From: Gammaproteobacteria bacterium
Lineage (GTDB): Bacteria > Pseudomonadota > Gammaproteobacteria > JAJPIJ01
Assembly (NCBI GenBank): GCA_022072255.1
Contig: JAJVHZ010000043.1
Span: forward strand, 1-45,797
Length of the DNA: 45,797 bases
Direction: 5' to 3'
Part shown: positions 1 to 45,797 of the stretch, in pieces
Position numbering within the stretch: the stretch's first letter is position 1
How the letters are laid out: each line of letters opens with the position of its first letter
The notes under the pieces: generated by a model
The model's input: the letters and a program-made list of their open reading frames with translations, nothing else
Databases searched by the model: none
What the model was told of the DNA's origin: nothing
Translations under genes and position numbers: made by a program

Positions 1-500
1 GCGATGGCGGTCAGTATTCCCCGCATGATGGCCAGCGGCGAGGGCGGGCAGCCGGGGACCGCCACGTCGACGGGTATGACGTTGGAGACCCGCCCGCAAC
101 TGGCGTAGCTTTCGCCGAAGACCCCGCCGGTGCAGCCGCAGTCGCCCAGTGCGACCACGAGCTTCGGGTCGGGCGTCGCCTCGTAGGTTCGCCGCAGCGC
201 CACCTCCATGTGGCGCGAAACCGGGCCGGTGACGAGCAGCATGTCGGCATGACGGGGACTGGCGACGAATCGTATCCCCAGTCCTTCGAGGTTGTAGTAC
301 GGGTTGTTGACGGCGTGGATCTCCAGTTCGCAGCCGTTGCAGGAGCCCGCGTCGACGTGTCGTATGGTCAATGCGCCCCTGAAGCGGCGGCGCACCTCCT
401 CCGCGAGCTGCCGAGCGGTTGCCAGCAGCGCGGGATCGGGCTCCGGCGCGGGCTCCGTCCGGATGCCCTTTGCGATTATCTGCCGCAGTATGTCCTGCAT
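1..500 (-). CDS. hyfI: Hydrogenase-4-like small FeS subunit (NuoB/HyfI family), 3' end cut by window edge
   Basis: NuoB/HyfI-type subunit that holds one [4Fe-4S] cluster (N2-like) next to the large subunit of complex-I-like enzymes. I translated from the ATG at 500 (166 codons, then the window ends). The cluster motifs are all present: GSCNGCELEI (C54, C57), GDCGCTGG (C121) and VPGCPPSP (C151). It lies 12 bases after the hyfG-like stop, on the same strand, as last visible gene of the operon. Because the adjacent large subunit has lost its NiFe ligands, this cluster may pass electrons to a quinone or an unknown site; that is inference. The family call is firm; the exact C-terminus is not visible. 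Confidence 0.9.
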   Translation of the reverse strand, partial: MQDILRQIIAKGIRTEPAPEPDPALLATARQLAEEVRRRFRGALTIRHVDAGSCNGCELEIHAVNNPYYNLEGLGIRFVASPRHADMLLVTGPVSRHMEVALRRTYEATPDPKLVVALGDCGCTGGVFGESYASCGRVSNVIPVDVAVPGCPPSPLAIMRGILTAI

Positions 501-512
501 CGTGCGCCGTGC

Positions 513-2057
513 TCAGAGATCGTGACCGCTGTAGGCCAGGTTGAAGGACTTGTTGATCAGCGGGAAGTCCGGAACGATGTTGCCGATGACCGCGTGTTCC
601 AGGACCGGCCAGTTCTGCCACGAGGGATCGTGCGGATGCAGGCGGTGGATGCGGTTCGCCGCGCCGGTGTGCAGCGCGATGAAGATCGGGCCGCGCCAGC
701 CCTCGACCATGCCGACACCGAAGGCGTGGTCCGGCGCCTGCCCTGGTGGCGTGCAAGTCTCCGTGCCAGGCAATCCGTCCAGCAGCAGGCGGGTGATGCG
801 CAACGACTCGCTCACCTCGTCGAAGCGGACATTGACCCGCGCCGCGACGTCGCCGTTGTGCCGCACGGCGGCGCGCACGGACAGCTCGTCATAGGGACGG
901 CACGGGAGGTCCACGCGCGCATCCCAGGCCATGCCGCTCGCGCGCCCGGCCAGACCGCACAACCCCAGCTTCAGCGCGAGTTCCGGCGTGACGATCCCCG
1001 CCTTGATGAAGCGATCCTGCAGGCCCGCGTGCTCATCGTAGATCGCGCGCAGGGCGGCAATGGCGCGCTCGAGCGTGTCCGCCTCCCGGCGCAGGCGGTC
1101 GATGTCGCCGGCGCGCAGATCGCAGCGAACACCACCGGGGATCACCACGTCCATCAGATAGCGGTGCCCGAACAACGATTCGTTCACCCGCAGCATGTCC
1201 TCCTTGAGCAGCGAGAACTGCGTGAGTCCGAAGGCGAACCCGGCGTCGTTGCCGAGCGCGCCGAGATCGCCGAGGTGGTTCGCGATGCGTTCCCGCTCGA
1301 GCAGCAATGCCCGCAGGCAGACGGCCCGCGCGGGCGGTTCGATCCGTGCGACCCCTTCCACCGCCATCGAGTAGGCCCACGCGTACGCCACAGTGGAATC
1401 TCCGCTGATGCGCGCGGCCAGGCGGGCGCCGGAGTCCAGCGTGCATGTCTCGAAGAGTTTCTCGATCCCCTTGTGCGTATACCCCAGCCGCTCCTCCAGG
1501 CGCAGGATCCGCTCGCCGACGACGTGAAACCGGAAGTGGCCGGGCTCGATGGTGCCGGCATGGACGGGGCCGACCGGTATCTCGTGCACGCCGTCACCGG
1601 AGACCGGAACGAAGGCATAGGGTTCCGATCGCGGCGTGCCCGCGCCGCCGATCGCGAAGGCCTTGCGCAGCGGCGCCTCGCCCGCTGCCCATGCGCCGTG
1701 CCGCAGCCAGGGCCGCGTGTCGAGGCTGCCACCCGCCTGCAACCCGAGCAGATCCTTCACCGCGCGCTGCATGCGTGCCGCGGCGGGATGCACCGGGCTC
1801 AGGTCGGGGTAGGTCCGGTGCGGCCCGAGCGGCAGCGACAGGCAGGCCATGACGCCGGAGGCGGCATAGGCGACGTGCATCGTGCAGCCCTGCCCGCGAT
1901 CGCTGTCGTCGCTGCCCCAGAGGCTGACGAGAAAGCCGCCATGATCGCGCACCCGCTGCGCGGTCTGATCCCATTTCAGCGCGTAGGTCTCCCCGTGCCA
2001 GGCGCGTATCGCGCCGGGCAGCGCAGTCAGGCCGATGGTCAGCTTCTCGGGATCCAT
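513..2057 (-). CDS. hyfG: NuoC-NuoD fused large subunit, HyfG/HycE-like but lacking NiFe cysteines (Ehr-type)
   Basis: 514-residue protein: an N-terminal NuoC-like part (about 1-110) followed by a NuoD/hydrogenase large-subunit part. Conserved landmarks include GYTHKGIEK (193-200), LLLERERIANHLGDLGAL and the extreme C-terminus. In real group 4 hydrogenases the L1 motif is RxCGxC and the L2 motif CxxC. Here L1 reads RISGDS (S218 and S221 in the cysteine positions) and the L2 segment reads NLAYSGHDL (A508 and G511). No CxxC occurs anywhere in the protein, so it cannot bind NiFe in the normal way. This matches the energy-converting hydrogenase related (Ehr) complexes known from the literature. 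It follows hyfF with a 9-base gap. The actual substrate is unknown. Confidence 0.9.
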   Translation of the reverse strand: MDPEKLTIGLTALPGAIRAWHGETYALKWDQTAQRVRDHGGFLVSLWGSDDSDRGQGCTMHVAYAASGVMACLSLPLGPHRTYPDLSPVHPAAARMQRAVKDLLGLQAGGSLDTRPWLRHGAWAAGEAPLRKAFAIGGAGTPRSEPYAFVPVSGDGVHEIPVGPVHAGTIEPGHFRFHVVGERILRLEERLGYTHKGIEKLFETCTLDSGARLAARISGDSTVAYAWAYSMAVEGVARIEPPARAVCLRALLLERERIANHLGDLGALGNDAGFAFGLTQFSLLKEDMLRVNESLFGHRYLMDVVIPGGVRCDLRAGDIDRLRREADTLERAIAALRAIYDEHAGLQDRFIKAGIVTPELALKLGLCGLAGRASGMAWDARVDLPCRPYDELSVRAAVRHNGDVAARVNVRFDEVSESLRITRLLLDGLPGTETCTPPGQAPDHAFGVGMVEGWRGPIFIALHTGAANRIHRLHPHDPSWQNWPVLEHAVIGNIVPDFPLINKSFNLAYSGHDL

Positions 2058-3518: not shown

Positions 3519-4181
3519 TCAGCGTTCCTTCAGCTTCTCGATGTGTTCGATGTCGAGGCTGTCGAAGGCCTCGCGCAGGTGGAACGTGAAGATGCCGAAG
3601 ATGAACGTGCCCACCAGCACGTCCAGCGCCACCCCGAGCTCCACGACCAGCGGCATGCCGTAGGTGGCGCTGGTGGCCGCGAAGAACAGACCGTTCTCCA
3701 TCGCCAGGAAACCGATCACCTGCGGCACCGCCTTGCGGCGGGTGATCATCATCATGAAGGAGAGCAGCACGCTGGCCAGCGCGATACCGAGCGTTCCCCG
3801 GGTGACGGTCGCCGAGAGGTGCGAGATCGGCATCGCGACATTGAAGCCGATGATGACCAGCACCACTCCGATCAGCATGGTCGTGGGGATGTTGACCAGC
3901 GTCTCCACGTCCCAGCGCACGTTCAGCTTGTCGATGAGACGGTGCAGGATCCAGGGCAGCAGGATTACCTTCAGGACGAGCGTGAGCAGCGCGGAGTAGT
4001 ACAGGTGATGCTGGTCGGTGACGAACGCGACCAGCGTGGTGTTCAGCGCCAGCACCGCGCCCTGCCATGCGAAGAGGTGGATGAGCGAGAGGACCCGCCT
4101 CTGGGCGAGCATCGCGAAGGCGATGAGCAGCAGCAGCGAGGCGAACAGGTTGATGAGCTGGGTGGACATGGAAGCGCTCAT
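3519..4181 (-). CDS. hyfE: HyfE-like small membrane subunit
   Basis: 220-residue hydrophobic protein with about six or seven membrane spans, related to NuoK and HyfE. The start was placed at the ATG at 4181 because it overlaps the TGA stop of the hyfC-like gene by 4 bases (ATGA); a second ATG at 4169 is possible. Readable segments include AMLAQRRVLSLIHLFAWQGA near the N-terminus and RRKAVPQVIGFLAMENGLFF near the middle, the latter typical of HyfE (the glutamate in MENG is the NuoK-like conserved acid). The tail is soluble and charged (HIEKLKER). Its place between hyfC and hyfF agrees with the usual order. Confidence 0.88.
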   Translation of the reverse strand: MSASMSTQLINLFASLLLLIAFAMLAQRRVLSLIHLFAWQGAVLALNTTLVAFVTDQHHLYYSALLTLVLKVILLPWILHRLIDKLNVRWDVETLVNIPTTMLIGVVLVIIGFNVAMPISHLSATVTRGTLGIALASVLLSFMMMITRRKAVPQVIGFLAMENGLFFAATSATYGMPLVVELGVALDVLVGTFIFGIFTFHLREAFDSLDIEHIEKLKER

Positions 4182-5128
4182 GCCGCGCCCTCCAGCAGCA
4201 CGTGCGTGAGCAGGCCGAGTACGGCCAGCAGGAACGCCATGGCGAGAAACTCCGGGGCGCGGAAGATCCGCAGCTTGGCCGAGAGCGTCTCGAGCAGGGC
4301 CAATGCGGCGCCCGCGGCCGCGAGCTTCGCGAGCAGGCAGAGGAGCGCGACCCAGATGGCCGACCCGTCCACGGCCCTGGCGATGCCCCAGGGGACGAAC
4401 AGCGCCACGCCGATGGTGGTATACGCCAGCAGCTTCAGATTCGAGGCCCAGTCCATGAGCGCCAGGTGACGCGCCGAGTACTCGAGCATCAGCGCCTCGT
4501 GGATCATCGTCAGCTCCAGATGGGTCGCGGGGTTGTCGATGGGTATGCGCGCATTCTCCGCCAGCAGCACCATGAGAAAGGCGAGCGCCGCGAAGGCGAG
4601 CCCGGGATGGATGACGAAGGGCTGGTAGGCGAGCGTGTGCACGATCGTCGACAGCGAGGTGGACTGGCTGATGAGCGCCGGGGTGAAGAACACCATCAGC
4701 AGCGCCGGTTCGGCGAGGAAGGCGATGAGCATCTCGCGCCGTGCGCCCATGGTGCCGAAGGCGGTGCCGATATCCATGGCGGCAAGCGCCATGAATACGC
4801 GGCCCAGCGCGAAGATGCCGACCAGCGCGATGACATCGGCCGCCGGCGCGATCGGCAAACCGGTGACCAGGGTCGGGATGATGGACGCGGCCAGCACCAT
4901 GGATCCGAAGCGGATGTAGGGCGTGGCGCGGAACAGAAACGACGCCCGGTGCGCCACGATGGCGTCCTTGTGAAACAGCTTCCTCAGGGCGCGGTACGGC
5001 TGCAGCAGGCCGGGGCCGCGGCGATTCTGCAGCCACGCCCGGCACTGGTTGACCCAGCCGGTGAACAGCGGGGCGAGCAGCACCACCAGGATGGTCTTGG
5101 CGACCTGTATCGCGATCGCCTCGTTCAT
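4178..5128 (-). CDS. hyfC: HyfC-like (NuoH family) membrane subunit
   Basis: 316-residue NuoH/HyfC-type protein that links the hydrophilic arm to the membrane arm in complex-I-like enzymes. About eight membrane spans can be read. Family marks are the early loop QNRRGPGLLQPYRALRKL (about 35-51), MGARREMLIAFLAEPALL (about 127-144) and ENARIPIDNPATHLELTMIHE (about 191-211), with the acidic residues that face the quinone-like cavity. It begins with an ATG that overlaps the hyfB stop by 4 bases and ends overlapping the hyfE start by 4 bases, so B, C and E are coupled in translation. Confidence 0.92.
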   Translation of the reverse strand: MNEAIAIQVAKTILVVLLAPLFTGWVNQCRAWLQNRRGPGLLQPYRALRKLFHKDAIVAHRASFLFRATPYIRFGSMVLAASIIPTLVTGLPIAPAADVIALVGIFALGRVFMALAAMDIGTAFGTMGARREMLIAFLAEPALLMVFFTPALISQSTSLSTIVHTLAYQPFVIHPGLAFAALAFLMVLLAENARIPIDNPATHLELTMIHEALMLEYSARHLALMDWASNLKLLAYTTIGVALFVPWGIARAVDGSAIWVALLCLLAKLAAAGAALALLETLSAKLRIFRAPEFLAMAFLLAVLGLLTHVLLEGAA

Positions 5129-8907: not shown

Positions 8908-10344
8908 TCAACCCTCCTCGCAGCCGACGAGCCGGCGGAGCTGCTCGCGTTCGCGTTCCCCGGCGTGGCGTTCGAACAGCGCCTCGAGGCGGGCAAGCTT
9001 CAGCATACGCTCGACCTTTTCGACCTGCGTCTTCAGGCGCGCCTGGTCCAGCTCGGCCGCCTCGGCCGCCGGCAGGGCACGCAACGCGTCCCGCAGCTGC
9101 GCGTATTCCGGGCTCGCCGCGAGATAGGCGTGGATCGCCGCCAGGACCGGGTCGCCTTCCTTCCACGTCAATTCATCCAGTGGTCGCTGCAGCTGCGGCC
9201 AGCGTTCGATCAGCTGCTTGCGCAGCAGCTTCTGCAGCGCCTCGATGTCGCCGGCGATCTGCTCCTTGCGCGCCTCGAGCGCCTGCTCCTGCCTCCTGAG
9301 TTCCTCGCGTCTGGCGGCCAGCTCGCCGGCCTTCAGGCTCCAGCCATGACGCGCGGCGACATCGGCGGCAATCTGCCAGTAGACCGACCGCGTATTGTCG
9401 GGAACCGGCGCGTCGCGCAACGCCCGCGGCTCCCAGTCCTCGAGAAAGACCTCGCTGGTGGAACGCGAAAGGTCGTAGCTGACAGCCGTGCGCAACGTGT
9501 ACCAGTGCGCCTCGCGCAGGCTGACCCTGCCGTCGTGATTCAGATCCGGGTCGCCGGCAAGCGGCCCGCCCTGGCGCGATCTGCCGGCAAGAGCGGCAAA
9601 GAAGTAGGTGGTGTAATCACGGTACTCGACGTTCTCGATGCCGAGCTGGCAGCCCTCGGCGCCGCGCTTCGCCTCCTGCGACATGAACCCGCAGCGATTC
9701 TGCGTGGACAATCTTCGATTGCCGGGCGGCTGGTACATGAGGCTCGCGAACCCGCCGGAGAAGCACTGCGGCAGCACGTACCGGATCGTTGTCTCATCGG
9801 GCGCCCTGTCCAGGATGCGGTCGAGTTCCTCGACGGTGATCGCGGAGGGCCCCCAGAGATCCAGCGTGTTTTCGGCGTATACGTTGTTGCCCTCGCCGCC
9901 ATGACCATTGAAGACGAGCAGCAGCTGCGAACCCGGCGCGAGGCCGGCAAGCGTCTGCTCCAGTGCCGGCGTCAGTTCTTCCTCGCGCGTGGAACCGAGC
10001 ACGTCCTTCACCGCATGGCGCTTGTAGCGGAGGTGGCTTGCGCCCGGTTCCCCGAAGACCTCGGAAAGCGCCGTCAGCGGCCCGTCCTCCGGAACATTCG
10101 GATCCAGGTAGACGACGTCGTCGCCGGGCTCGTTGCCGATACCGAAATACATGTCGACGTCGTAACCCAGCCGCGGCAACAGCCCCTGCAGCCACAGGAC
10201 GTTCTGCTCGATCTGGCCCTGCGATTCGCCCAGTCGCGGTCCGCCCCCGATCACGATCGCCTTGCCGCCGGCCGGCGCGTCGGTCGGAACCGCGCCGGCC
10301 AGCATCGTCACCGCGCAGATCATGATTCCACCGGGTAATCGCAT
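8908..10344 (-). CDS. Exported caspase-like cysteine protease with EF-hand and coiled coil
   Basis: 478-residue protein from the ATG at 10344, chosen because a signal peptide follows at once (MRLPGGIMICAVTMLAGAVP, cut near A24-G26) and GAGGAG lies 11 bases upstream; an open frame extends to 10494 but that extension is Arg-rich and unconvincing. Residues about 27-260 look like a caspase/C13-type fold: strand LLLVFNGHGGEGNN with H148, strand IRYVLPQCFSGGFASLMY with C194, the His-Cys dyad. A textbook EF-hand loop follows at 267-278 (D267, N269, D271, G272, S275, E278), then a charged coiled coil at about 341-382 and a helical tail. Calcium-activated periplasmic proteolysis is plausible but unproven. 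The MBL gene lies upstream on the same strand, 244 bases away. Confidence 0.8.
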   Translation of the reverse strand: MRLPGGIMICAVTMLAGAVPTDAPAGGKAIVIGGGPRLGESQGQIEQNVLWLQGLLPRLGYDVDMYFGIGNEPGDDVVYLDPNVPEDGPLTALSEVFGEPGASHLRYKRHAVKDVLGSTREEELTPALEQTLAGLAPGSQLLLVFNGHGGEGNNVYAENTLDLWGPSAITVEELDRILDRAPDETTIRYVLPQCFSGGFASLMYQPPGNRRLSTQNRCGFMSQEAKRGAEGCQLGIENVEYRDYTTYFFAALAGRSRQGGPLAGDPDLNHDGRVSLREAHWYTLRTAVSYDLSRSTSEVFLEDWEPRALRDAPVPDNTRSVYWQIAADVAARHGWSLKAGELAARREELRRQEQALEARKEQIAGDIEALQKLLRKQLIERWPQLQRPLDELTWKEGDPVLAAIHAYLAASPEYAQLRDALRALPAAEAAELDQARLKTQVEKVERMLKLARLEALFERHAGEREREQLRRLVGCEEG

Positions 10345-10588
10345 CCGACGTGATACTCCTCGTCCCCGCCACCGCGCCTGAGCTCGCCCTGCCCGCGCCA
10401 GTTGCCGCTCCGCGGGACAGACCCTGGTAGAGGTTATCAGAACGCCGGCGCACCGGGCGGCTGGGCGCGGGAGGAAAGTTGCGTCACGGTGCACGTCTTC
10501 GCGCGAATGCGGGCGCGGGGCGCCAGGCGGGAGTCGGAACGCGCATGCCTGCCGACGCTCACGATCCCGCGCGGCAACGCCGGCCGCT

Positions 10589-11647
10589 CTACAGATCGAG
10601 CGCGATGCCCTGCTCGCCCGCCGCCGGGTAACGCGCCGTGAAATCGAACCGGCGCGCCAGCAGGCGCGCCTTCCACATCTCGTTGAAGCGGGTCAGGTAG
10701 TTGAAGTGGATGGTCTTGCCCCGGCTGCCGTACTTCGCCACCCGCGCGATGCACTCCCGATCCGGGTGCTGGAACAGTTTGCCGTTGGTGGAGACGATCC
10801 AGTGCGGGCAGACGACGGCACGCACCAGCTCGATGTTGGTGTTGTTGCGGCTGCCATGATGCGGAAGCTTGAAGGCATCCACGCGGAGCGGGTCCCGACC
10901 CGCGAGCCGTTGCAGCGATGTCAGCAGCACCGGCGCGAGCGCGTCGGCCGCCAGGACCACGCGCCTGCCGCGATACTCGGCCAGCAGCGCAATGCTGCTG
11001 CCGTTCGGCCGAGCGGAATCGGAGACGAACCGGCGATCGGCCAGCGCGTCGATCGACTCCATCGCGCGTGACAGGAGGGCACGTACACGGTGTCGCAGCC
11101 TGCGCCGGCCGGCGCCGGGCACCAGGCCCGCCGCCCTGCAGGCCTTCTCCCACTCGGGCAGCAGGCGAGCGAGCTGCGCCGGCGTCGGCGACAGCACGGT
11201 CAGACGCATGCCGCCGGCGAGCTCGACGCCGGGCAGCGCACCCTGATCCGGCACCACCACGGCGGCCCCCGCGAAGCTCGCGTTCCACGGCAGCGCCATG
11301 CCCTCTATGTGCGCCGTGAGATCCTCGCCCTGCAGCGCGCCGCGCCGGCCCGCGGCCAGATGGCGATAGCCGTTGAACCAGATGTCGCCGAAGGTCACGC
11401 CAAGCTGCCGCGACTCGGCCAGCAGATCGACCGCGCCGCCGATGTGATCGACATCCACGTGCGTGACGACGAACAGCTCGAAATGACGATCCCGCGGCGC
11501 GAGGGCCTCGATACGGCCGCGCAACGCATCGCGATAGACGGCCTGCGTCCCGCAGTCGACGAGGATGCGCCGCGGTCGGCGCGCGGCTCCGTACTCGATC
11601 CAGAGCGAATCGCCGAATTCCGCCGGGAGAACCTCGATGCGCAGCAC
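10589..11647 (-). CDS. Metallo-beta-lactamase-fold hydrolase (ComEC/Rec2-related type)
   Basis: 352-residue soluble MBL-fold protein from the GTG at 11647, favoured because AAGGAAGG precedes it and the first strand (VLRIEVLPAEFGDSLWI) begins there, as in this subfamily; an upstream open frame reaches 11773. The zinc motif HxDxDH is THVDVDHIGG (H63, D65, D67, H68), and the later ligand motif is LPHHGSRNN about residue 260. The 'GDSLWIEYG ... ILVDCG' opening is typical of ComEC C-terminal-like MBL proteins that stand alone and often sit in conflict or stress loci. Substrate unknown; nuclease or phosphodiesterase are the usual guesses for this fold. Confidence 0.85.
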   Translation of the reverse strand: MLRIEVLPAEFGDSLWIEYGAARRPRRILVDCGTQAVYRDALRGRIEALAPRDRHFELFVVTHVDVDHIGGAVDLLAESRQLGVTFGDIWFNGYRHLAAGRRGALQGEDLTAHIEGMALPWNASFAGAAVVVPDQGALPGVELAGGMRLTVLSPTPAQLARLLPEWEKACRAAGLVPGAGRRRLRHRVRALLSRAMESIDALADRRFVSDSARPNGSSIALLAEYRGRRVVLAADALAPVLLTSLQRLAGRDPLRVDAFKLPHHGSRNNTNIELVRAVVCPHWIVSTNGKLFQHPDRECIARVAKYGSRGKTIHFNYLTRFNEMWKARLLARRFDFTARYPAAGEQGIALDL

Positions 11648-12173
11648 GATCGCAATCCTTCCTTCGCTGTGCCTCTCCCGCAGAGCATAGTTCATCGGGA
11701 CCCGGCCGGCATGCGCGCCCGACGGCGATGCAGACGGCATGGCGCAGAACCTCCGGAATCGCCGTCTGATCACGCGTCACCGCGGTGGCCGGTGCGTGAG
11801 CGGTGTGGCGGCGCGACCACGCCCCGCCGGAACGGGCACTCCGGGAGGCGATTTGCAACCTGCGATGATCGTCAGCACGGCAGCGGCGCAGTGAGGATGC
11901 GGCGGAATGCCGCACGAGCACGCCGCCGAATCCAATCCCGGCCAGGATGATGAATGGACCTGAGGAGGCGCCGCGCCGGCATCCTGCCGGCCCGGCGCCT
12001 TGGACAACCGTCCTTGTTCCGAAACCTGTGTCCGTACCGACTAGTTAGCGGTCGGCAGGATCGGCTCCTTTATAGGGCGTTGCCCGATTATTCTCTCGGA
12101 CAAACGCCTAGCCACCTGGCCGGTACCGGGGTCCGACGAGACAACCGGGAGGGTAATCCGAGGGAGGCGCCGC
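11648..12173. other. 526-base intergenic region with a strong hairpin
   Basis: No convincing gene. Short open frames here have neither good start sites nor recognisable protein character. The stretch holds the hairpin at 11966-12000 listed separately, a smaller one, GGGC-AAC-GCCC (on the minus strand, about 12078-12088), and an AT-richer patch around 12060-12105 with TATAAA on the minus strand. A small RNA or a transcript end for the response regulator is possible. Confidence 0.45.
11966..12000. terminator. Perfect long hairpin, possible terminator downstream of the two-component genes
   Basis: AGGCGCCG (11966-11973) pairs with CGGCGCCT (11993-12000); inside, GCCGGCA (11975-11981) pairs with TGCCGGC (11985-11991). 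That makes 15 base pairs with one C-C mismatch and a TCC loop. It lies about 170 bases after the response regulator stop. There is no T-run on either side, so intrinsic termination is uncertain; it could protect a 3' end or be a protein site. Confidence 0.45.
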
Positions 12174-12836
12174 TCAGGTGAGATCGTGGTCCAGGCAGTA
12201 CCGCATGATCTCCGCGTTGTTCGCCAGACCGAGCTTTTTCAGCAGATTCGTGCGGTGGGTGCTCACCGTCTTGACACTGAGGTGCAGCATCTCGGCGATC
12301 TCGCCCACCGTCCTGCCGGCGCCGATGAGGCACATCACCCTGTATTCCTGCGGCGAGAGCCGGTCATGCGGCTGCTGCGTGCCGTCGCCGATGACGTTCA
12401 TGGCCAGACGCCTGGCCAGCGCGGGGCTGACGTAGTCGTCGCCGTTCAGGATCGTGCGCACGGCGGTCAGCAGGTCCTCCGGCGCCTTCTTCTTGGTGAG
12501 AAAGCCGTCGGCGCCCGCCTTCAGCGCGCGCAGCGCGAAGTGCTCCTCCGGATGCATGCTGAGCACCAGTATCGGGACCTCCGGGCACTGCCGTCGCAGC
12601 GAAGTAAGGCCGCCCATACCCTCGTTTCCCGGCATGGTCAGGTCCATGATGACGGCGTCGTAATGCTGCTGGCGCGTGGCGTTGAGCAGCATGTCGGTGT
12701 CCTCCACCTCGTCGATGGTCGCGCCGGGGTAGGCGTCGAGCAGGAGTTGCTTGACCCCGCGGCTGACGATGGGGTGGTCATCGGCGATGATCAATTTCAG
12801 ATCCTGCACGGCCCTAGGTTGCTGCTGAGTCTGCAT
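12174..12836 (-). CDS. NarL/FixJ-type response regulator
   Basis: 220-residue two-component regulator. Receiver domain about 12-130: acidic pocket D19-D20, phospho-acceptor D65 (VIMDLTMPG) and the conserved lysine near 119-121 (TKKKAPEDL). A LuxR-type helix-turn-helix follows at about 155-215 (RLSPQEYRVMCLIGAG, then VGEIAEMLHLSVKTVSTHRT). Its start lies inside the end of the kinase gene (23-base overlap), so the two form an operon and a cognate pair. Targets are unknown; the divergent VWA gene is one candidate by position. Confidence 0.93.
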   Translation of the reverse strand: MQTQQQPRAVQDLKLIIADDHPIVSRGVKQLLLDAYPGATIDEVEDTDMLLNATRQQHYDAVIMDLTMPGNEGMGGLTSLRRQCPEVPILVLSMHPEEHFALRALKAGADGFLTKKKAPEDLLTAVRTILNGDDYVSPALARRLAMNVIGDGTQQPHDRLSPQEYRVMCLIGAGRTVGEIAEMLHLSVKTVSTHRTNLLKKLGLANNAEIMRYCLDHDLT

Positions 12837-15240
12837 CGCAAGGTACCTCCACGCTCACGACTGTGCCACGACCGGGGATGCCTGTCACCGTCAGCCGGCC
12901 GGCGAGCAGCCGCGCCCGTTCGCGCATACCGAGCATGCCCAGCGCGCTCGCCGCGTACTGCGCGTCCTCGGCGACGCCCCGGCCGTCGTCCCGGATCTCC
13001 ACGTGCAGCATCCCGTCGACCTCGACCAGGGATACGTCGACACGCTCCGCGCCGGCATGGCGGGCGACGTTGGTCATTGCCTCCTGCACGATGCGGAACA
13101 CGTGCGTCGCCTCCGGGCCCGGCAGGGTCGCGATCTCGCCGGCATGCACGCGGCTGCGGATGCCGGTGCGTTCGGCGAACTGCTCGGCGTATACCTCCAG
13201 GGCGGGCACCAGCCCCATGTCCTCCAGCATCTGCGGGCGCAGTTGCGCGCTGATGCGCTGCACGCTGTCCACGGTCATGTCGATGAGTGCGGTCATGCCC
13301 TTGAGCTTGTCGACCACGGCGGCACGGACGGCCTCGTCCGCGCCGGCAAGACGCTGCGCCGCCCAGCTCGCATCGAGCTTCAGGGCCGTGAGGGCCTGGC
13401 CGAGCTGATCGTGGACCTCCCGCGCGAGGTGGCGGCGCTCCGCCTCGACCGCCTCGTCCAGCCGCCCGAGCAGGGTTCGCAGCTGCTCGCGCGAACGGCG
13501 CAACTCCATCTCCACGTCCTTGTTGCCCGAGATGTCGGTGACGGTGCCCATGAAACCTGCAAGGTAGCCGTCGGGATCGTGTTGCGGGATCCCGTTGCAC
13601 AGCGCCCAGCGCACGACTCCGTCCTGGCGCTGGTAACGGTATTCGGCCTGGAACGGCGTACGCCCGGCGACCGCCCGGTACCACTGTGCGCTGACGCGCT
13701 CGCGGTCCTCGGAATACAGCGCGTTCGTCCAGCCCTTGCCCTGTGCCTGCTCCGGAGACATCCCGGCGATGTCGCACCAGCGCTGATTGACATACAGGCA
13801 GTCGCCGCTGGCGTCGGTTTCGAACACTCCCACCGGCGCGATCTGCACGAGCTCGTGGAAGCGCCGTTCGCTCAGCGCCAGCTGTTCCATCGCCCGGCGC
13901 AGCGCGGTGATGTCGCGGTTGGCCTCCAGCATCAGGGTGCGGCCGCCAATCGTCACCTTCTGCACGCGGCTGGAGACGATGACCTGCCGGCCGCTGCGCG
14001 TGTACTGGCGCAATTCGCCGGACCATTTGCCGTTACGATCGAGTTCGGCCTCGAACTGTTCGTGCGAATCGGGAAAGACGGTCTTCAGCAGCGTGGATGT
14101 CGTCCGCCCCACCGCCTCTTCCTTGGTGAATCCGTAGAGGCGCTCGGAACCCTGGTTCCAGAACACGATGCCGCTGGTCTCGTCCCACACGAAGATCGGG
14201 TCGTGGGCGAGGTGGATGAGCATCGCCTGCTGGCGCAATCCCTCCTCGACCGTCAATCGCTGCGTGAGATCGCGCGCGAGGAGGAGAAAACATCGCTGGC
14301 CGCGCAGGCGGCAGCAACTCCGCTGCAGGTCGAGCGACACGGTCGTGCCGTTCCTGCGGCGATAACGCGCGCGGCCGGTCATCCCCTGGCCGGGCTGCAG
14401 GTCCATCCAATCTGCACGGTCGTCCTCGGCCGACGCCTCGCCCGCGTTCAGATCCTGCACCGACATCGCGAGCAGCTCACCGCGTGTATAGCCGAGGCAG
14501 TCGCAGGCCGCCCGGTTCACATCCGTGAGCCGGCCGGCCTCGTCGTGAACCAGGAACGCGTCGGTGGCGCACTCGGCCAGCGCCCGCAACATGTTCTCCG
14601 TCTCGCCGGCCCCGGTGATCCCTCCCTCGAGGACCGCCATCGTCTCCGCGAGCTCTGCGGCCGTCCTGGAGGGCATTGCCCCGGGCTCGCCGCCGTCGGG
14701 ATGCCGATCGACCCCAGCGATGGCGAGCGCCGCCAGGTCCTGCAGCAACCCGACGCCGCGCGCGGGCCAGCGGCGCGGCCGGTCGTCGACGACGCAGATC
14801 ATCCCGTGCAAACGACCGTCAGCGGACGCAAGCGGCACGGCCAGGCAGGAGCGGAAGCCGCAATCGAGCAGCGCCGCGGATTCCTTTGCCGTCGGTTGCT
14901 GGCGCGTGTCCTCGGCAACGAACGACTGTCCGCCGGCCACGAGCCAAGCGTGCAGGGCCTCGGTCAGCCGGGTGGCGAGCGTGCGGGAGGACTCACCGGA
15001 CAGTCCGAATGCGCCGATCGTCAGTTGGCTGCCGGGATGGACGATGCGGACCAGTGCGACAGGGGCTTCCAGGGCACGGGCGACGGCCCGCGCCAGGAGA
15101 TCGGGCATCGAGGCCACCTGCACACCGGGGAAAACGGCTTCACCCACCTGCTGCGGCTGCGGGGAATGCTGCAGCGACGATCTTGACGGTTGATCCACGG
15201 ATACCGCTTCCGCCCGATACACGGAAGGCCGCCCTCTCAT
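12814..15240 (-). CDS. GAF / triple-PAS sensor histidine kinase (NarX-like HisKA_3 class)
   Basis: 808-residue soluble hybrid-free sensor kinase. GAF domain about 41-180 (SFVAEDTRQQP, CLAVPLAS); PAS 1 about 212-328, PAS 2 about 335-448 and PAS 3 about 455-575 (with PAC-like ends such as LLARDLTQ and GFMGTVTDISG). Dimerisation/phospho-acceptor HisKA_3 at about 600-670 with H610 in HLAREVHDQLGQ, then HATPase_c with VFRIVQEAMTNVARHAGA and EIRDDGRG. No membrane span is seen, so it senses a cytoplasmic signal. The ATG at 15240 is used; a GTG 12 codons later with GGAAGCGG before it is also possible. It is coupled to the downstream response regulator. Confidence 0.93.
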   Translation of the reverse strand: MRGRPSVYRAEAVSVDQPSRSSLQHSPQPQQVGEAVFPGVQVASMPDLLARAVARALEAPVALVRIVHPGSQLTIGAFGLSGESSRTLATRLTEALHAWLVAGGQSFVAEDTRQQPTAKESAALLDCGFRSCLAVPLASADGRLHGMICVVDDRPRRWPARGVGLLQDLAALAIAGVDRHPDGGEPGAMPSRTAAELAETMAVLEGGITGAGETENMLRALAECATDAFLVHDEAGRLTDVNRAACDCLGYTRGELLAMSVQDLNAGEASAEDDRADWMDLQPGQGMTGRARYRRRNGTTVSLDLQRSCCRLRGQRCFLLLARDLTQRLTVEEGLRQQAMLIHLAHDPIFVWDETSGIVFWNQGSERLYGFTKEEAVGRTTSTLLKTVFPDSHEQFEAELDRNGKWSGELRQYTRSGRQVIVSSRVQKVTIGGRTLMLEANRDITALRRAMEQLALSERRFHELVQIAPVGVFETDASGDCLYVNQRWCDIAGMSPEQAQGKGWTNALYSEDRERVSAQWYRAVAGRTPFQAEYRYQRQDGVVRWALCNGIPQHDPDGYLAGFMGTVTDISGNKDVEMELRRSREQLRTLLGRLDEAVEAERRHLAREVHDQLGQALTALKLDASWAAQRLAGADEAVRAAVVDKLKGMTALIDMTVDSVQRISAQLRPQMLEDMGLVPALEVYAEQFAERTGIRSRVHAGEIATLPGPEATHVFRIVQEAMTNVARHAGAERVDVSLVEVDGMLHVEIRDDGRGVAEDAQYAASALGMLGMRERARLLAGRLTVTGIPGRGTVVSVEVPCDADSAAT

Positions 15241-34055: not shown

Positions 34056-34194
34056 GCAGGCTGCCGGGTGCGAGACTCCGGCTCCCACTCAATTACCGAC
34101 AGCTCACCACGGTGGCGTCAAAGCCGGAATGATCTCCGGCAAGGTGGCATTTCTGTCCGTTCATTTGGTTGTTTGAATCGCATCGGGGACCGTG

Positions 34195-35661
34195 ATGGCC
34201 AGCACCGAATACTACAACGACCGCGTCGTGCGTCTGTTCCTGCTGGCGGCGACGGTGTGGGGCATCGTAGGCATGCTCCTTGGCATGTACGCGGCCGCCG
34301 AACTCGCCTGGCCTGGCCTGAATCTCGGCATACCCTGGGTGACGTTCAGCCGGCTCCGGCCGGATCACACTTTCGGCGTCATTTTCGCATTCGGCGGATC
34401 GGCGCTGATGGGTACGTGCTACTACGTCGTGCAGCGCACCGGCCACTGCCGGCTCGCATGGGATCGGGTGGCCGAGTGCACGTTCTGGGGCTGGCAGCTG
34501 GTCTGCGTGCTGGCGATGGTGACGATGCCGCTCGGCATCACGCAGAGCAAGGAGTATGCCGAACCCGAGTGGTTCATCGACATCCTGACGGCGATCGTCT
34601 GGATCAGCTTCGGCGCGGTGTTCTTCGCGACCCTGGCGCGCCGGCGCATCCGCCACATCTACGTCGCCAACTGGTACTACGGCGCGTTCATCATCGCGGT
34701 CGGTCTGCTGCACGTCGTCAACAACCTCGCGCTGCCGGCATCGCTGACGAAGTCCTACCCGATCTACTCCGGTGTCGCCGACGCGATGGTGCAGTGGTGG
34801 TACGGCCACAACGCGGTGGCATTCTTCCTGACCGCCGGTTTCCTCGGGATGATGTACTACTTCGTGCCGCGCCAGGCCCAACAGCCGCTTTGGAGCTACC
34901 GCTTCTCGATCGTCAACTTCTGGGCCCTGATCTCGATCTACATGTGGGCCGGCTCGCACCACCTGATGTACACCGCGCTGCCGGACTGGGTGCAGTCGGT
35001 CGGCATGGCATTCTCGCTGGTCCTGCTGATGCCGAGCTGGGGCTCGGCCGCGAACGGCCTGCTGACCTTCAACGGCTCGTGGCACCGCCTGAGATCCGAT
35101 CCGGCGGCCAAGTTCATGGTGCTCGCGCTGGTGTTCTACGCCGCGTCGACGTCCGAAGGCTCGATGATGGCGATCAAGACCGTCAACTCGCTGTCGCACT
35201 ACACGGACTGGACGATCGCGCACGTGCACTCGGGTTCGCTCGGCTGGGTCGCAATGATCACGATCGGCTCGCTGTACGCGATGGCGCCGCGCGCGCTCGG
35301 CCGCCCCGAGATGCACTCGCGAAAGGCGATCGAACTGCATTTCTGGATGCACACGGCGGGCACGCTGCTGTACGTCGCCGCGATGTGGATCGCCGGAGTG
35401 ACCGAGGGCATGATGTGGCGCGCCACGCAGCCGGACGGCTCGCTGACGCACGCGTTCATCGACAGCCTGCTCGCGATCAAGCCGCTGTACGTACTGCGCT
35501 GGTCCGGTGGCGTGCTGATCTGGCTCGGCATGTGGGTGATGGCGTGGAACCTCTGGTACACGGCCGCCGACGCCCGCAGGAAGGTCATCCTGCCAGTGCC
35601 GGTACCGATCCCGGAGCCGGTATCGCCGCAGACCCCGGCGCCGCTTCCGGTTGCCGGTTGA
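34195..35661 (+). CDS. ccoN: Cytochrome cbb3 oxidase subunit I
   Basis: 488-residue heme-copper oxidase catalytic subunit with 12 or more membrane spans. Low-spin heme ligand H58 (RPDHTFGVIFAFGGSA), CuB histidine with the nearby crosslinked tyrosine zone (WWYGHNAVAFFLTAGFLGMMYYFVPR), the SHHLMYTALP pair, and the high/low-spin heme ligands HVHSGSLGW. A GTG three bases upstream (34192) could also start it. It reduces O2 to water with high affinity and pumps protons. The 3' end (Pro-rich VPVPIPEPVSPQTPAPLP) is a short disordered tail. ccoO follows after 9 bases. Confidence 0.97.
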   Translation: MASTEYYNDRVVRLFLLAATVWGIVGMLLGMYAAAELAWPGLNLGIPWVTFSRLRPDHTFGVIFAFGGSALMGTCYYVVQRTGHCRLAWDRVAECTFWGWQLVCVLAMVTMPLGITQSKEYAEPEWFIDILTAIVWISFGAVFFATLARRRIRHIYVANWYYGAFIIAVGLLHVVNNLALPASLTKSYPIYSGVADAMVQWWYGHNAVAFFLTAGFLGMMYYFVPRQAQQPLWSYRFSIVNFWALISIYMWAGSHHLMYTALPDWVQSVGMAFSLVLLMPSWGSAANGLLTFNGSWHRLRSDPAAKFMVLALVFYAASTSEGSMMAIKTVNSLSHYTDWTIAHVHSGSLGWVAMITIGSLYAMAPRALGRPEMHSRKAIELHFWMHTAGTLLYVAAMWIAGVTEGMMWRATQPDGSLTHAFIDSLLAIKPLYVLRWSGGVLIWLGMWVMAWNLWYTAADARRKVILPVPVPIPEPVSPQTPAPLPVAG

Positions 35662-35670
35662 GGAACGCCC

Positions 35671-36336
35671 ATGGCCTATCGCCACTTCGAATTCATCGAG
35701 AAACACGCGTGGATGCTCGGCATCCTGACCGCGTCCATGGTGTCGCTGGGCGGCCTCGCCGAGATCTTGCCGACGTTCGTCGAGGCGAACCGCGTCAAGC
35801 TGGAGGCAGGCGGCAAGCCCTACGAACCGCTGCGGCTGGCCGGCCGCGACATCTACGTACGCGAAGGCTGCTATCTCTGCCACTCGCAGATGATCCGCGC
35901 GCTGCGCTTCGAAACACAGCGTTACGGCCGCTTCTCCACCGCCGAGGAATCGGTTTACGACCGGCCGTTCCAGTGGGGCTCCAAACGCACCGGCCCGGAT
36001 CTGGCGCGCGTGGGCGGAAAGTATTCCGACGACTGGCAGCGCGTGCACCTGACGGAGCCGCGCGCCGTCGTGCCGCAATCGAACATGCCCGCCTATCCGT
36101 GGCTCGCGACGGCCGAGATCGACGCGGCCGAAATCGCGGCACGGATGCGTACACTGCGCAAGCTCGGCGACCCTTACACCGATGCCGACATCGCCGCCGC
36201 CGCCAAGGCGCTCGACGGCAGGACGGAACTCGATGCGCTGGTCGCCTACCTGCAGGGCCTCGGCGTCGCCAACGAGCCGCGGCCGGCGGAGGCAAACGCC
36301 GCTGCCACCGCGCCGGTCGCGAGGACTTCACCGTGA
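35671..36336 (+). CDS. ccoO: Cytochrome cbb3 oxidase subunit II (mono-heme cytochrome c)
   Basis: 221-residue membrane-anchored cytochrome c. One N-terminal span (about 12-34) followed by a periplasmic domain with CYLCH (C67, C70, H71) binding one heme; the conserved GCYLCHSQMIRALRFETQRYG stretch and NMPAYPWL, with the likely methionine ligand, are in place. It passes electrons to subunit I. The C-terminal 20 residues are Ala-rich. The stop overlaps the ccoQ start by 4 bases (GTGA). Confidence 0.97.
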   Translation: MAYRHFEFIEKHAWMLGILTASMVSLGGLAEILPTFVEANRVKLEAGGKPYEPLRLAGRDIYVREGCYLCHSQMIRALRFETQRYGRFSTAEESVYDRPFQWGSKRTGPDLARVGGKYSDDWQRVHLTEPRAVVPQSNMPAYPWLATAEIDAAEIAARMRTLRKLGDPYTDADIAAAAKALDGRTELDALVAYLQGLGVANEPRPAEANAAATAPVARTSP

Positions 36337-36527
36337 CTCCGGTCTGGGGTCATCTCGCCGGGGTCTTCATCGTGCTGATGATGGCGACGTTCATCGGCAT
36401 CTGGGTCTGGGCCTGGCTGCCCCGTCACAAGCACACGTTCGGCTGGCTGGCGCGGTTGCCGATGGAAGACAGCACCGAACGGGCGGACGATTCGATTCCG
36501 CCCACCGACGAGGAGGAGCGCCTGTGA
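36333..36527 (+). CDS. ccoQ: Cytochrome cbb3 oxidase subunit CcoQ
   Basis: 64-residue protein starting at a GTG. One membrane span at about 9-29 (GVFIVLMMATFIGIWVWAWL), then a short basic turn (RHKHTF) and an acidic tail (EDSTERADDSIPPTDEEERL), the normal CcoQ layout. CcoQ stabilises the oxidase. Four-base overlaps on both sides place it between ccoO and ccoP. The frame is easily missed because a long spurious frame runs in from upstream. Confidence 0.9.
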   Translation: MTPVWGHLAGVFIVLMMATFIGIWVWAWLPRHKHTFGWLARLPMEDSTERADDSIPPTDEEERL

Positions 36528-37435
36528 GCAGCGGCTGGTCCTGGTGGGTCATCGGCCTCATCGTCTTCAACCTCGGGGTGACGTTCCTCCTGTTCCTGTG
36601 GGCGCCGCGCGCCAAGGTGCCGGTACTGCCCGACGGCACCACCGGTCACGTCTGGGCCCACGGCGTCCTGCGCGAGGGCATGCACCGGCTGCCGGGCTGG
36701 TGGATCGTGGCGTCGTTCGCGATGTATTTCATCGCGTTCGGGTACCTTGTGCTGTATCCGGGCTTCGGCAACCACGAGGGCGCGCTCGGCTGGACCTCAG
36801 GACGGGAGCTCGCCGCCGCAACGGCGGCCAACTCCGCGAAGCTCGATCCGGTACTGCAGCGGCTTGCCGCGATGAGCGTCGAGGCGGTGGCCGGCGACGC
36901 CCAGGCGCAGCGGCTCGGCGCGCGCCTGTTCGTCGACAACTGCGCGGCCTGCCACGGCAGGGACGGCCTGGGCAACACGCGGCTCGGCGCGCCGAACCTG
37001 ACCGACGCCGACTGGCTTTATGGCGGCACGGGACAGGACATCACCACCTCGATCCGCGGCGGGCGAACGGGCGTGATGCCACCGTGGAGCACGCTCGGCG
37101 AGGCGACGGTGAAGAGCCTCGCCCAGTACGTGCTGAGCCTGTCCGGGCAGCCGCACGACGCGGCGGGCGCGGTGTCCGGCGAACCAACCTTCAAGACAAA
37201 CTGCGTCGCCTGTCACGGGCCGCAGGGCAAGGGCAACCCGCTGCTTGGCGCGCCGAACCTCACCGACGATATCTGGCTGTATGGCGGCACGCTGGCGGCG
37301 ATGGAAACGACGATTCGCGACGGCCGCCAGGGCCACATGCCCGCGTGGAGTCCGCGCCTGTCCGACGACGACATCCACGTCCTGGCTGGCTACGTCTATC
37401 ATCTTGCGCACGGTGCAGATGCAGCCGCGCGGTGA
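36524..37435 (+). CDS. ccoP: Cytochrome cbb3 oxidase subunit III (di-heme cytochrome c)
   Basis: 303 residues from the GTG at 36524. Two membrane spans (about 7-27 and 60-79) and a periplasmic part with two heme motifs: CAACH (C140, C143, H144) and CVACH (C227, C230, H231). The repeated LGAPNLTD-WLYGG pattern (about 154-168 and 240-254) and the later methionines are typical of CcoP. It accepts electrons from soluble cytochrome c. It is coupled to ccoQ by 4 bases. Confidence 0.96.
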   Translation: MSSGWSWWVIGLIVFNLGVTFLLFLWAPRAKVPVLPDGTTGHVWAHGVLREGMHRLPGWWIVASFAMYFIAFGYLVLYPGFGNHEGALGWTSGRELAAATAANSAKLDPVLQRLAAMSVEAVAGDAQAQRLGARLFVDNCAACHGRDGLGNTRLGAPNLTDADWLYGGTGQDITTSIRGGRTGVMPPWSTLGEATVKSLAQYVLSLSGQPHDAAGAVSGEPTFKTNCVACHGPQGKGNPLLGAPNLTDDIWLYGGTLAAMETTIRDGRQGHMPAWSPRLSDDDIHVLAGYVYHLAHGADAAAR

Positions 37436-37625
37436 TCCGCCGCGCCGCGGATCGTGGTATTCCCAAGCGGTCGTCTGGCTGGGCATCGCCGTGTTCGCGG
37501 CCTCGCTCGCCGGCAGCGTCTGGCTGATCGTCCTGGGCGCGCGCTACGACGACGCCCGCATTCCCACCGGTCACCAGGTCTTCGGCGTGCCGGCGCAGCA
37601 AGCGACGCGCCCGCCAGGTCCATGA
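37419..37625 (+). CDS. Small one-span membrane protein downstream of ccoP
   Basis: 68 residues with one membrane span at about 17-39 (SQAVVWLGIAVFAASLAGSVW). Its start lies inside the end of ccoP (17-base overlap; GTG at 37413 is the other option), so it is translated with the oxidase. The position and shape recall the small oxidase-linked proteins or a shortened CcoH/FixH, but the large periplasmic CcoH domain is absent. I do not recognise the family. Confidence 0.6.
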   Translation: MQPRGDPPRRGSWYSQAVVWLGIAVFAASLAGSVWLIVLGARYDDARIPTGHQVFGVPAQQATRPPGP

Positions 37626-37847
37626 AGCGCCCGCACGCCTGTCCGGCGTAAGCTGCCACCCCCGAGGGTCAGGCCTGGCACCCGGCGCGCGGGTTGACCG
37701 TTCCGTGTCGTCGTGCCCTATCGGGCGAAGGGGGCGAGGACTATGCCGGCACACAGGCGCATCCCTCGCCTTACGAGCGTGGAGACAGGCGCTGGTGAAC
37801 CGTCGCTGCGACATGTGCGATATGGCTCTGTCGACACTCCCTCCGGT

Positions 37848-38540
37848 TCATCTGGTCCGCCTGACCCGCACGATCTGGTAGGCCCGGCCAAGATAACCGA
37901 ATGGCGCACTCCAGATGTGCACGAGGCGGGTGAACGGGAAGAACAGGAATACCGACATGCCGAGGAACATGTGGAATCTGTAGACCGGGCTGACGTCGAG
38001 CACCAGGCTCGGGTCGGGATGCAGGTAGAGGATGCTCTGCACCCATTCCGCGAGCCGGATCATCGTTGAGGCATCGCCGCTGCTGGCATGATGGATCGAT
38101 GTGGGGATGGTGATCAGCCCGGCGGCGGCGGTCAGGGCCAGCCAGCCGAGGATGTTGATGTCCATCCAGCGCGAGGCGGCGCGCACGCGCGGGTTCGTGA
38201 GACGCCGCAGCCACAGCACGATGGCGCCCAGCAGGCAGGCGCCGCCGAACAGCGTGCCGGCGGAGATGGCCAACCACTGGTGCGTCATGTCCGACACGCC
38301 CAGGGCGAGAAACACCGCGTGGGGCGTCAGCAGGCCGATCACATGCCCGAGGAACAGGCCCAGAATGCCGTAGTGGAAGAAATTGCTGGCGAAGCGCATG
38401 CCGCGCCTGGACAGCAACTGGCTCGAGTCGCTCTTCCAGGTGTATTGCTCGTGATCGAAGCGGATCCAGCTGCCGAGCAGAAACACGGTGGTGGCGATAT
38501 AGGGGTAAACCCCGAATATGAAGTTGTGCAGGAATTCCAT
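37848..38540 (-). CDS. narI: Nitrate reductase gamma subunit (cytochrome b)
   Basis: 230-residue di-heme b membrane subunit that oxidises quinol and passes electrons to NarH. Five membrane spans; heme histidines in FFHYGILGLFLGHVIGLL (about 55-72) and YRFHMFLGMSVFLFFPFTRLVHIW (about 185-208). Start taken at the ATG at 38540, where the typical MEFLHNFIFGVYPY begins, with GGAG 7 bases upstream; the open frame extends further. The gene is last of the nar operon and converges with the cbb3 operon. About 220 bases between the two ends hold only short inverted repeats. Confidence 0.96.
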   Translation of the reverse strand: MEFLHNFIFGVYPYIATTVFLLGSWIRFDHEQYTWKSDSSQLLSRRGMRFASNFFHYGILGLFLGHVIGLLTPHAVFLALGVSDMTHQWLAISAGTLFGGACLLGAIVLWLRRLTNPRVRAASRWMDINILGWLALTAAAGLITIPTSIHHASSGDASTMIRLAEWVQSILYLHPDPSLVLDVSPVYRFHMFLGMSVFLFFPFTRLVHIWSAPFGYLGRAYQIVRVRRTR

Positions 38541-38584
38541 GGTCATCTCCGATGCGAATGGCTCTGTGGCAATCATCCGCCACG

Positions 38585-39310
38585 TCAGCGGCGGGCCAGA
38601 ACGTCGTTCCCCTGCGTCGATGGGGCATGGCCTTCGACGAAGGCCGTCGCGCGCCCATGCAGGCGTACCGGCACGACTCCCGGCGCGCGCGGGGCGCCGC
38701 AGGCACTTGGCGCCGACCAGCTCACCGGCGGATCGAAATCGCCGTCGGCCAGGCAGGGATCGGTCCGTTGCGCAGGACGCGGCGCCGACATGTCGCCGCC
38801 GGCCCCGAGCCCGCCGCCGCGCGCCTCGATCAGCCCGACCAGATCGGCGTAGAGACTGCCCGCCTCGGCCAGGTTGGCGCGTAGCTGGCGCAGCACCTTG
38901 CGCCAGCGCGAGAGAAACGACCGGCCCGCCTCTTCCTCCAGCAGCGACACGAATTCGAGCAGCAGGGGCAGATAGTCGGGCAGTTCCTTGTCGATGATCT
39001 CCAAGCCGTGTTCCCTGAAATGCTCGGTCAGGTCGATGAGCGCCGGACCGCGATTCTTGTCCTCGCCGATCAGGTGGTGCGTCAGGTGCAGGCTGTGCTC
39101 GGGGACCATGTCGAAGGTGCGCACGTAATCCTCCTCGGCCGACAGGGAATCGGCGGCGGACAGCCGTTCCACGAAGCGGGCGAGCACCTCGCGCTCTCCG
39201 GCCGCGAGACCTTCCTCGCGCTCGATGGCGCCGGCAATCGCGGGCAGGGCCGCGCGCAGCGCGGCGTCAGGGTAGCCCAGCAGGGCGGAGGCAATGCGAT
39301 GGAAGCTCAT
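38585..39310 (-). CDS. narJ: Nitrate reductase assembly chaperone
   Basis: 241-residue cytoplasmic chaperone that inserts the Mo cofactor into NarG and helps membrane attachment. Helical TorD-like core about 1-165: SLSAEEDYVRTFDMVPEHSLHL, HHLIGEDKNRGPALIDL and ELPDYLPLLLEFVSLL are typical of NarJ. The C-terminal 70 residues (from about 172) are Gly/Pro-rich and not conserved-looking. It lies 10 bases from narH in the usual G-H-J-I order. Confidence 0.95.
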   Translation of the reverse strand: MSFHRIASALLGYPDAALRAALPAIAGAIEREEGLAAGEREVLARFVERLSAADSLSAEEDYVRTFDMVPEHSLHLTHHLIGEDKNRGPALIDLTEHFREHGLEIIDKELPDYLPLLLEFVSLLEEEAGRSFLSRWRKVLRQLRANLAEAGSLYADLVGLIEARGGGLGAGGDMSAPRPAQRTDPCLADGDFDPPVSWSAPSACGAPRAPGVVPVRLHGRATAFVEGHAPSTQGNDVLARR

Positions 39311-39320
39311 GGCGCGCCCC

Positions 39321-40868: not shown

Positions 40869-40890
40869 GTGAATCTCCTCCGTATTCCGT

Positions 40891-45782: not shown

Positions 45783-45797
45783 GGACGGCAGCCGGAC

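Follow-up and report, generated by a model that had tools for sequence, protein, structure and literature searches.

The window (the whole 45,797-nucleotide stretch of DNA analysed) carries near its left end an operon on the minus strand in the order hyfB-C-E-F-G-I (Table 1). The window opens at base 1 of a 66,614-base contig, which truncates hyfI. The sister genome has the full-length gene (170 aa) as the last of the operon, followed by a gene for a cNMP-binding/rhodanese protein.

Table 1. Positions of the operon, of key large-subunit residues and of other features within the window
Feature	Positions	Strand	Basis or remark
hyfB, antiporter-like proton-pump subunit, 671 aa	5125..7140	-	NCBIfam NF005086 (hydrogenase 4 subunit B), 890 bits, above cut-off
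hyfC, NuoH-like membrane anchor, 316 aa	4178..5128	-	PF00146
hyfE, membrane subunit, 220 aa	3519..4181	-	NF008556 (hydrogenase 4 membrane subunit), E 3.9e-25, below curated cut-off
hyfF, antiporter-like proton-pump subunit, 482 aa	2067..3515	-	NF005045 (hydrogenase 4 subunit F), 852 bits, above cut-off
hyfG/ehrL, NuoCD-like large subunit without NiFe ligands	513..2057	-	514 aa, ATG to stop
Glu171, aligned with MbhL Glu21	1545..1547	-	Invariant column; HycE/MbhL alignment; role of E21 from the excerpt of PMC7684303
L1 site R216-I-S-G-D-S221, replacing RxCGxC	1395..1412	-	Asp220 invariant in the clade
Arg455, the Arg of 'EAPRG' in HycE/MbhL	693..695	-	Alignment and invariant column
C-terminal site A508-Y-S-G511, replacing CxxC	525..536	-	Three residues, then stop; no cleavable extension
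hyfI/ehrS, NuoB-like small subunit, one [4Fe-4S]	3..500	-	PF01058; 3' end cut at contig edge
Region of the metallo-beta-lactamase-fold gene	8908-11773	-
Metallo-beta-lactamase-fold protein	10589-11773	-	PADLOC: LmuA (E 1.6e-65), Avs1a, RT-associated MBL
Region of the oxidase and nitrate reductase genes	34192-45797
COX1-type oxidase subunit	34192-35661	+
Respiratory nitrate reductase, beta	39321-40868	-	Pfam
Respiratory nitrate reductase, alpha	40891-44640	-	Pfam

Operon content, membrane arm and small subunit

An earlier note, made from the sequence alone, gave this gene order correctly but listed only hyfA and hyfD as missing. Relative to E. coli hyf, hyfA, hyfD, hyfH and hyfJ are absent, and hyfH, the two-cluster ferredoxin subunit, is the loss that matters most for mechanism. 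The note had also pointed to the DNA left of the window as a place for a HyfA-like ferredoxin or hyp genes. The sister genome has no HyfA, hyp or dehydrogenase genes at that place after hyfI.

The membrane arm and the four FeS cysteines of the small subunit, described in the note as intact, are invariant or nearly so across relatives. In HyfB, E147, K227, K305, K356 and E411 are invariant (77-79 sequences), as are E134, K223, K302, K342 and E397 in HyfF (91-93 sequences) and K71 and E181 in HyfE. HyfC has invariant E140, E191, E205, E211 and E216 (82 sequences), with E132 in 80 of the 82. The HyfI cysteines C54, C57, C121 and C151 are invariant in 96-97 sequences and show hydrogenase-like CxxC spacing. 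No ferredoxin domain is present in the small subunits of the clade described below; outgroup small subunits (L070, L053 and L054) have one at the N-terminus, as does the deepest, long-branched member (a second copy in L033). The complex therefore appears to be a derived one with a single cluster and no built-in wire.

Two further regions of the window were recorded. The metallo-beta-lactamase-fold protein has strong defence-system matches (Table 1) and adjoins an ORF of 528 aa that matches nothing in Pfam and has a weak caspase-like NCBIfam match; by sequence, the two may possibly form an uncharacterised defence pair. Toward the right end, further nar genes likely surround those for the nitrate reductase alpha and beta subunits.

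The large subunit and the former NiFe site

The earlier note had read RISGDS in place of RxCGxC and AYSG in place of the C-terminal CxxC, with no other CxxC in HyfG. This is borne out by the ORF translation, by the sister genome and by alignment to E. coli HycE (PDB 7z0s, 206 bits), in which the CGIC and CYSC ligands fall on S218/S221 and A508/G511. The NuoD-type 2fug_4 was also aligned. The chain ends ...NKSFNLAYSGHDL*, that is, the motif NLAYSG followed by HDL and a stop (...GHDL); A508 and G511 stand where the ligands would be. None of the eight HyfG cysteines (58, 72, 205, 247, 312, 367, 386 and 435) forms a CxxC. The HyfG of the sister species, 92% identical, has the same residues at all ligand sites, which excludes sequencing error as the cause; more than 100 relatives also lack the ligands. 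The AF2 model of HyfG (pLDDT 91.2, pTM 0.93, from a 61-sequence alignment) superposes on HycE (7z0s_E) with Z 47.3 and an rmsd of 2.0 Å over 512 residues (Foldseek TM 0.93). As modelled, the hydrogenase fold is retained along the whole chain.

Polar residues are conserved around the former metal site: Glu171, Arg455, Asp220, Asn502, Lys503, Tyr509 and Asp513. Together with S504, they are invariant in the 61 aligned HyfG rows. Some loci had been picked by a pattern including NKS or IEPGHFRF, and conservation of those stretches is biased in those loci; pattern-independent genome-wide matches show the same invariant residues, with rare variation at the last one. D220 lies between the two lost L1 ligand positions. 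Its equivalent is I in HycE and V in a four-cysteine cousin (L070), and thus the aspartate marks the ligandless clade. In a minority of relatives one of the two L1 cysteines survives (RxCGDS, SGDC), and in none do both. Judged from the alignments, second-sphere Glu171 and Arg455 were retained when the metal was lost.

Ligandless proteins end at the alignment end or at most one residue from it, and HycE and HyfG of E. coli run about 33 residues longer. This C-terminal extension is the part cut off by the maturation protease (HycI). The four-cysteine cousin likewise has none, so a missing extension is by itself weak evidence against a hydrogenase.

Maturation genes bear on the same question. HypD is absent from the window's genome (95.5% complete) and from the sister genome. 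The window's genome has no PF00374 match, and a second NiFe large subunit was thereby rejected; the sole other relative is an ordinary complex I NuoD/NuoB on another contig (C6). Among 95 relatives, 17 carry the large subunit and 10 of these 17 lack HypD (Fisher p = 1), as expected if Ehr and HypD are unrelated. Group-4 [NiFe]-hydrogenases have four cysteine ligands in two CxxC motifs and Hyp maturation proteins in the genome (HypD as marker), and those of the formate-hydrogenlyase type also have a cleavable C-terminal extension; we found none of these here. What the locus does have is the make-up of Ehr (Ech hydrogenase-related) complexes, a group-4-like operon encoding antiporter-like and NuoH-like proteins besides a large and a small subunit, the large one free of NiFe-binding CxxC motifs. 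Because the ligands, HypD and any NiFe large subunit are all lacking, H2 chemistry is implausible. The complex is almost certainly an Ehr and not a hydrogenase, as the earlier note had proposed. Published hyfBCEFGI/Ehr sets are likewise described as non-hydrogenase and of unknown function in the excerpts of PMC7735108, PMC12342949 and PMC10284858.

The comparison with E. coli hydrogenase-4 and formate hydrogenlyase (HyfG, HycE) runs in both directions. Shared are the large-subunit fold, the membrane arm, the small subunit, Glu171 and Arg455, whereas the window's complex has no NiFe cysteines, HyfA, HyfD, HyfH or C-terminal extension, and its genome no HypD.

A single ligandless clade

In a maximum-likelihood tree of 65 large subunits, all 47 SGDS-type proteins fall in one clade (support 100/98). 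HycE and E. coli HyfG lie outside it, and the clade adjoins HycE-type hydrogenases. The four-cysteine L070 protein is placed as its sister with weak SH-aLRT support (91/46), and the exact nearest hydrogenase is therefore unsure. Pairwise comparison with the sister species gives dN/dS of 0.10-0.19 for hyfI, hyfF, hyfG and hyfB. Since the ligandless proteins form one clade, their loss of ligands is old and selected rather than decay. The family name, the gene order and an older hydrogenase-4 annotation (excerpt of PMC5596200) would suit a cryptic or degenerate formate hydrogenlyase, but purifying selection and the old single clade speak against decay, the ligands, HypD, HyfA, HyfH and the C-terminal extension are all missing, and the ligands are missing from the sister genome and the >100 relatives as well; this reading is extremely improbable. 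Judging by sequence comparison, a six-subunit Ehr pump probably arose from a group-4 (formate-hydrogenlyase-type) hydrogenase by loss of the NiFe ligands and the ferredoxin subunits, a reading we favour somewhat over its alternatives.

The complex is carried by 62 of 349 sampled Pseudomonadota genomes, about one in six (70 matches minus 8 E. coli-type hydrogenases). The protein of Cupriavidus metallidurans CH34 (L032) and three Nitrospirae-labelled ones (L116, L119 and L122) share the window's clade (100/98). Ehr or hyfBCEFGI sets are on record from Geobacter sulfurreducens (GSU0739-0745), C. metallidurans (Rmet_4666-4671), Acidithiobacillus ferrooxidans (DN052_15040-15065), Nitrospirales and Methylacidiphilum. 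The window shares with them the six subunit types and a large subunit without NiFe ligands, for Geobacter by description only. The C. metallidurans set has the same gene order and a large subunit 57% identical to the window's, and we found no difference. Excerpts of the literature describe an incomplete hyf operon of the same six genes in C. metallidurans and C. eutrophus H16 (PMC2864759), non-hydrogenase catalytic sequences in the At. ferrooxidans set (PMC7735108), ehrABCDLS in Methylacidiphilum (PMC6688271) and an Ehr complex in Geobacter (PMC7894505). According to the excerpt of PMC12342949, roughly half of the Nitrospirales genomes have an Ehr, its function unknown, and N. moscoviensis shows no H2 response.

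The window thus holds a further member of an already described type. What we add is the single-clade loss, the invariant Asp220 with Glu171 and Arg455 kept, the disappearance of the ferredoxin module in parallel, and the neighbouring SulP and carbonic-anhydrase-like genes described below. We did not meet these points in the excerpts of the Ehr literature examined, the founding comparative work apart, and some may be known. Annotation still labels such complexes hydrogenase or formate hydrogenlyase. The clade shows how a hydrogenase can turn into another kind of pump: the active site changes and the membrane arm does not. Accounts of how complex I originated usually call on such a step.

Several relatives of the large subunit stood out in this sampling. 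L070 (1677-4425) encodes a hydrogenase-like large subunit with four cysteines (RICGVC...LCYSCTDR) and without the C-terminal extension. Its gene and one for a ferredoxin-HyfI fusion sit immediately upstream of a ligandless Ehr operon, and the MAG has no HypD match. The protein is possibly a living intermediate, or else a hydrogenase for which the assembly lacks the maturation genes. L053 and L054 (genome G043) encode ligandless large subunits of other kinds (SGVG/TIAGCDR and SGSS/SNAECDR) with ferredoxin-bearing small subunits; that genome also has the SGDS type and no HypD. L053 and L054 represent a second ligandless lineage. Another large-subunit family (L018, L019, L020 and L055), with RICVPDP and DACPPEVDR, groups with NuoD in the tree. 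An Ehr operon is kept in a 0.9-Mb genome rated 100% complete (L178, genome G272), which suggests that its function is kept under genome reduction.

Candidate reactions and neighbouring genes

Like complex I (NuoCD, NuoB, NuoH, NuoL/M), the Ehr complex has the 49-kDa fold, NuoH- and NuoM-like subunits, the pump residues and no NiFe ligands. It differs in having no NADH module and in HyfI, which shows the hydrogenase CxxC spacing rather than adjacent cysteines. In a gap-free stretch of the alignment to 2fug_4, H38 and Y87 of T. thermophilus Nqo4 correspond to I170 and G219. His38 and Tyr87 are the residues at the quinone headgroup in complex I, and their replacement weakens a quinone version of the reaction. 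Since other residues could hold a quinone, one bound in that way is our first candidate for the substrate, if on balance a doubtful one.

The MBS complex of Pyrococcus furiosus is, like Ehr, a hydrogenase-derived ion pump without NiFe, and it offers a precedent for reduction of a sulfane-sulfur substrate directly by the [4Fe-4S] cluster. As described in the excerpt of PMC7684303, MBS keeps two of the four ligand cysteines, has three clusters with the proximal one open, and has no Glu21 equivalent. That chemistry needs a shortened motif freeing one Fe, in a proximal cluster held by three cysteines, whereas HyfI has four invariant cysteines with hydrogenase spacing and would be expected to hold its cluster closed; the Glu21 equivalent lost in MBS is also kept here. 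The rhodanese-domain protein that follows the operon in the sister genome would fit sulfur chemistry, yet such a neighbour occurs in only 1 of 122 loci. An MBS-type reaction is accordingly very unlikely.

With the quinone residues of complex I absent and an open MBS cluster unlikely, a redox pump with its substrate near E171, R455 and D220 is most likely. We consider it reasonably probable, from the conserved residues, that the Ehr complex is a redox-coupled proton pump; a pump without electron traffic would also be compatible with the sequence. Given that there is no ferredoxin module and no built-in wire, we infer that a small soluble one-electron carrier (ferredoxin-like) would dock directly at HyfI. 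The single HyfI cluster would then pass electrons to a polar organic substrate in the pocket that once housed NiFe, or take them from it, and the pocket reaction would drive, or be driven by, proton translocation through HyfC, HyfE, HyfF and HyfB.

Across 122 loci, no dehydrogenase, ferredoxin or other redox-partner gene was seen to recur near the operon. This bears on reverse electron transport, in which the proton-motive force would push quinol electrons to ferredoxin via the one cluster. Some carriers need low-potential electrons, among them nitrogen-fixing genera (Azospirillum, Rhizobium and Paraburkholderia), iron oxidisers (Gallionella) and Nitrospira, a carrier according to the excerpt of PMC12342949, and a soluble ferredoxin could dock directly where the built-in ferredoxin subunits are missing. 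Against this, no ferredoxin gene recurs near the operon and in many carriers (Burkholderia, Cupriavidus) such a need is not obvious, and we judge reverse transport unlikely.

Formate or CO dehydrogenase neighbours were searched for by Pfam on a subset of loci, and none was recognised in the loci examined; the excerpt of PMC5596200 reports CODH as a neighbour in Nitrospira nitrosa. The hemerythrin gene that the earlier note mentioned as context is indeed nearby, but it is a genus-local feature (2 of 122 loci), and we rejected it as a functional partner.

Some other neighbours would fit a link to inorganic carbon. Of the 122 loci, 11 have a gene for a SulP anion transporter close to the operon. 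All 11 genes share the operon's strand, ten of them upstream of hyfB and one within the operon bounds, and they come in several gene orders and from two SulP subfamilies. In the nine genomes checked (1.9-4.9 Mb), SulP matches number 1-7 per genome, some of them fragmented. By our own estimate, in which related loci are non-independent, chance adjacency should account for well under one case. A hexapeptide gene lies directly before hyfB in L083 and L181, with best NCBIfam matches, below cut-offs, to CcmM and carbonic anhydrase; one such gene is 4.4 kb away in L077, and L181 also has a DASS anion transporter. The protein in L083 and L181 has a His pattern like that of gamma-carbonic anhydrase (Cam). 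RuBisCO-family matches occur in 37 of 62 carriers and 62 of 287 non-carriers (p = 1e-8, by a test that ignores kinship), and the excerpt of PMC6688271 proposes a pH role for Methylacidiphilum Ehr.

These observations would suit an inorganic-carbon or pH machine with anion (bicarbonate) transporters and carbonic anhydrase, in which the pump drives or follows CO2/HCO3- and proton balance. However, most loci have no such neighbour, the window's genome has no RuBisCO match and no SulP adjoining its operon, and the RuBisCO association is dominated by one family, with PF00016 also taking in RuBisCO-like proteins. Because the association ignores kinship and is without a counterpart in the window's genome, we keep the carbon reading as a rival, though a fairly unlikely one. 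A combined form is quite unlikely: a proton-pumping complex I relative with one isolated [4Fe-4S] and a non-quinone, non-hydrogen substrate, coupled in some lineages to bicarbonate transport and carbonic anhydrase, and so a redox- or pmf-coupled inorganic-carbon or pH device made from a hydrogenase. Testable handles on the reaction of the complex are offered by the invariant Asp220 and by the neighbouring SulP and carbonic-anhydrase-like genes.

A spermidine-synthase-like gene is another recurrent neighbour of the Ehr operon, present in 16 loci of Burkholderiales and Gallionella-type genomes and in most of them on the operon's strand (for example, L081 at 4048-4875 and L065 at 12068-12910).
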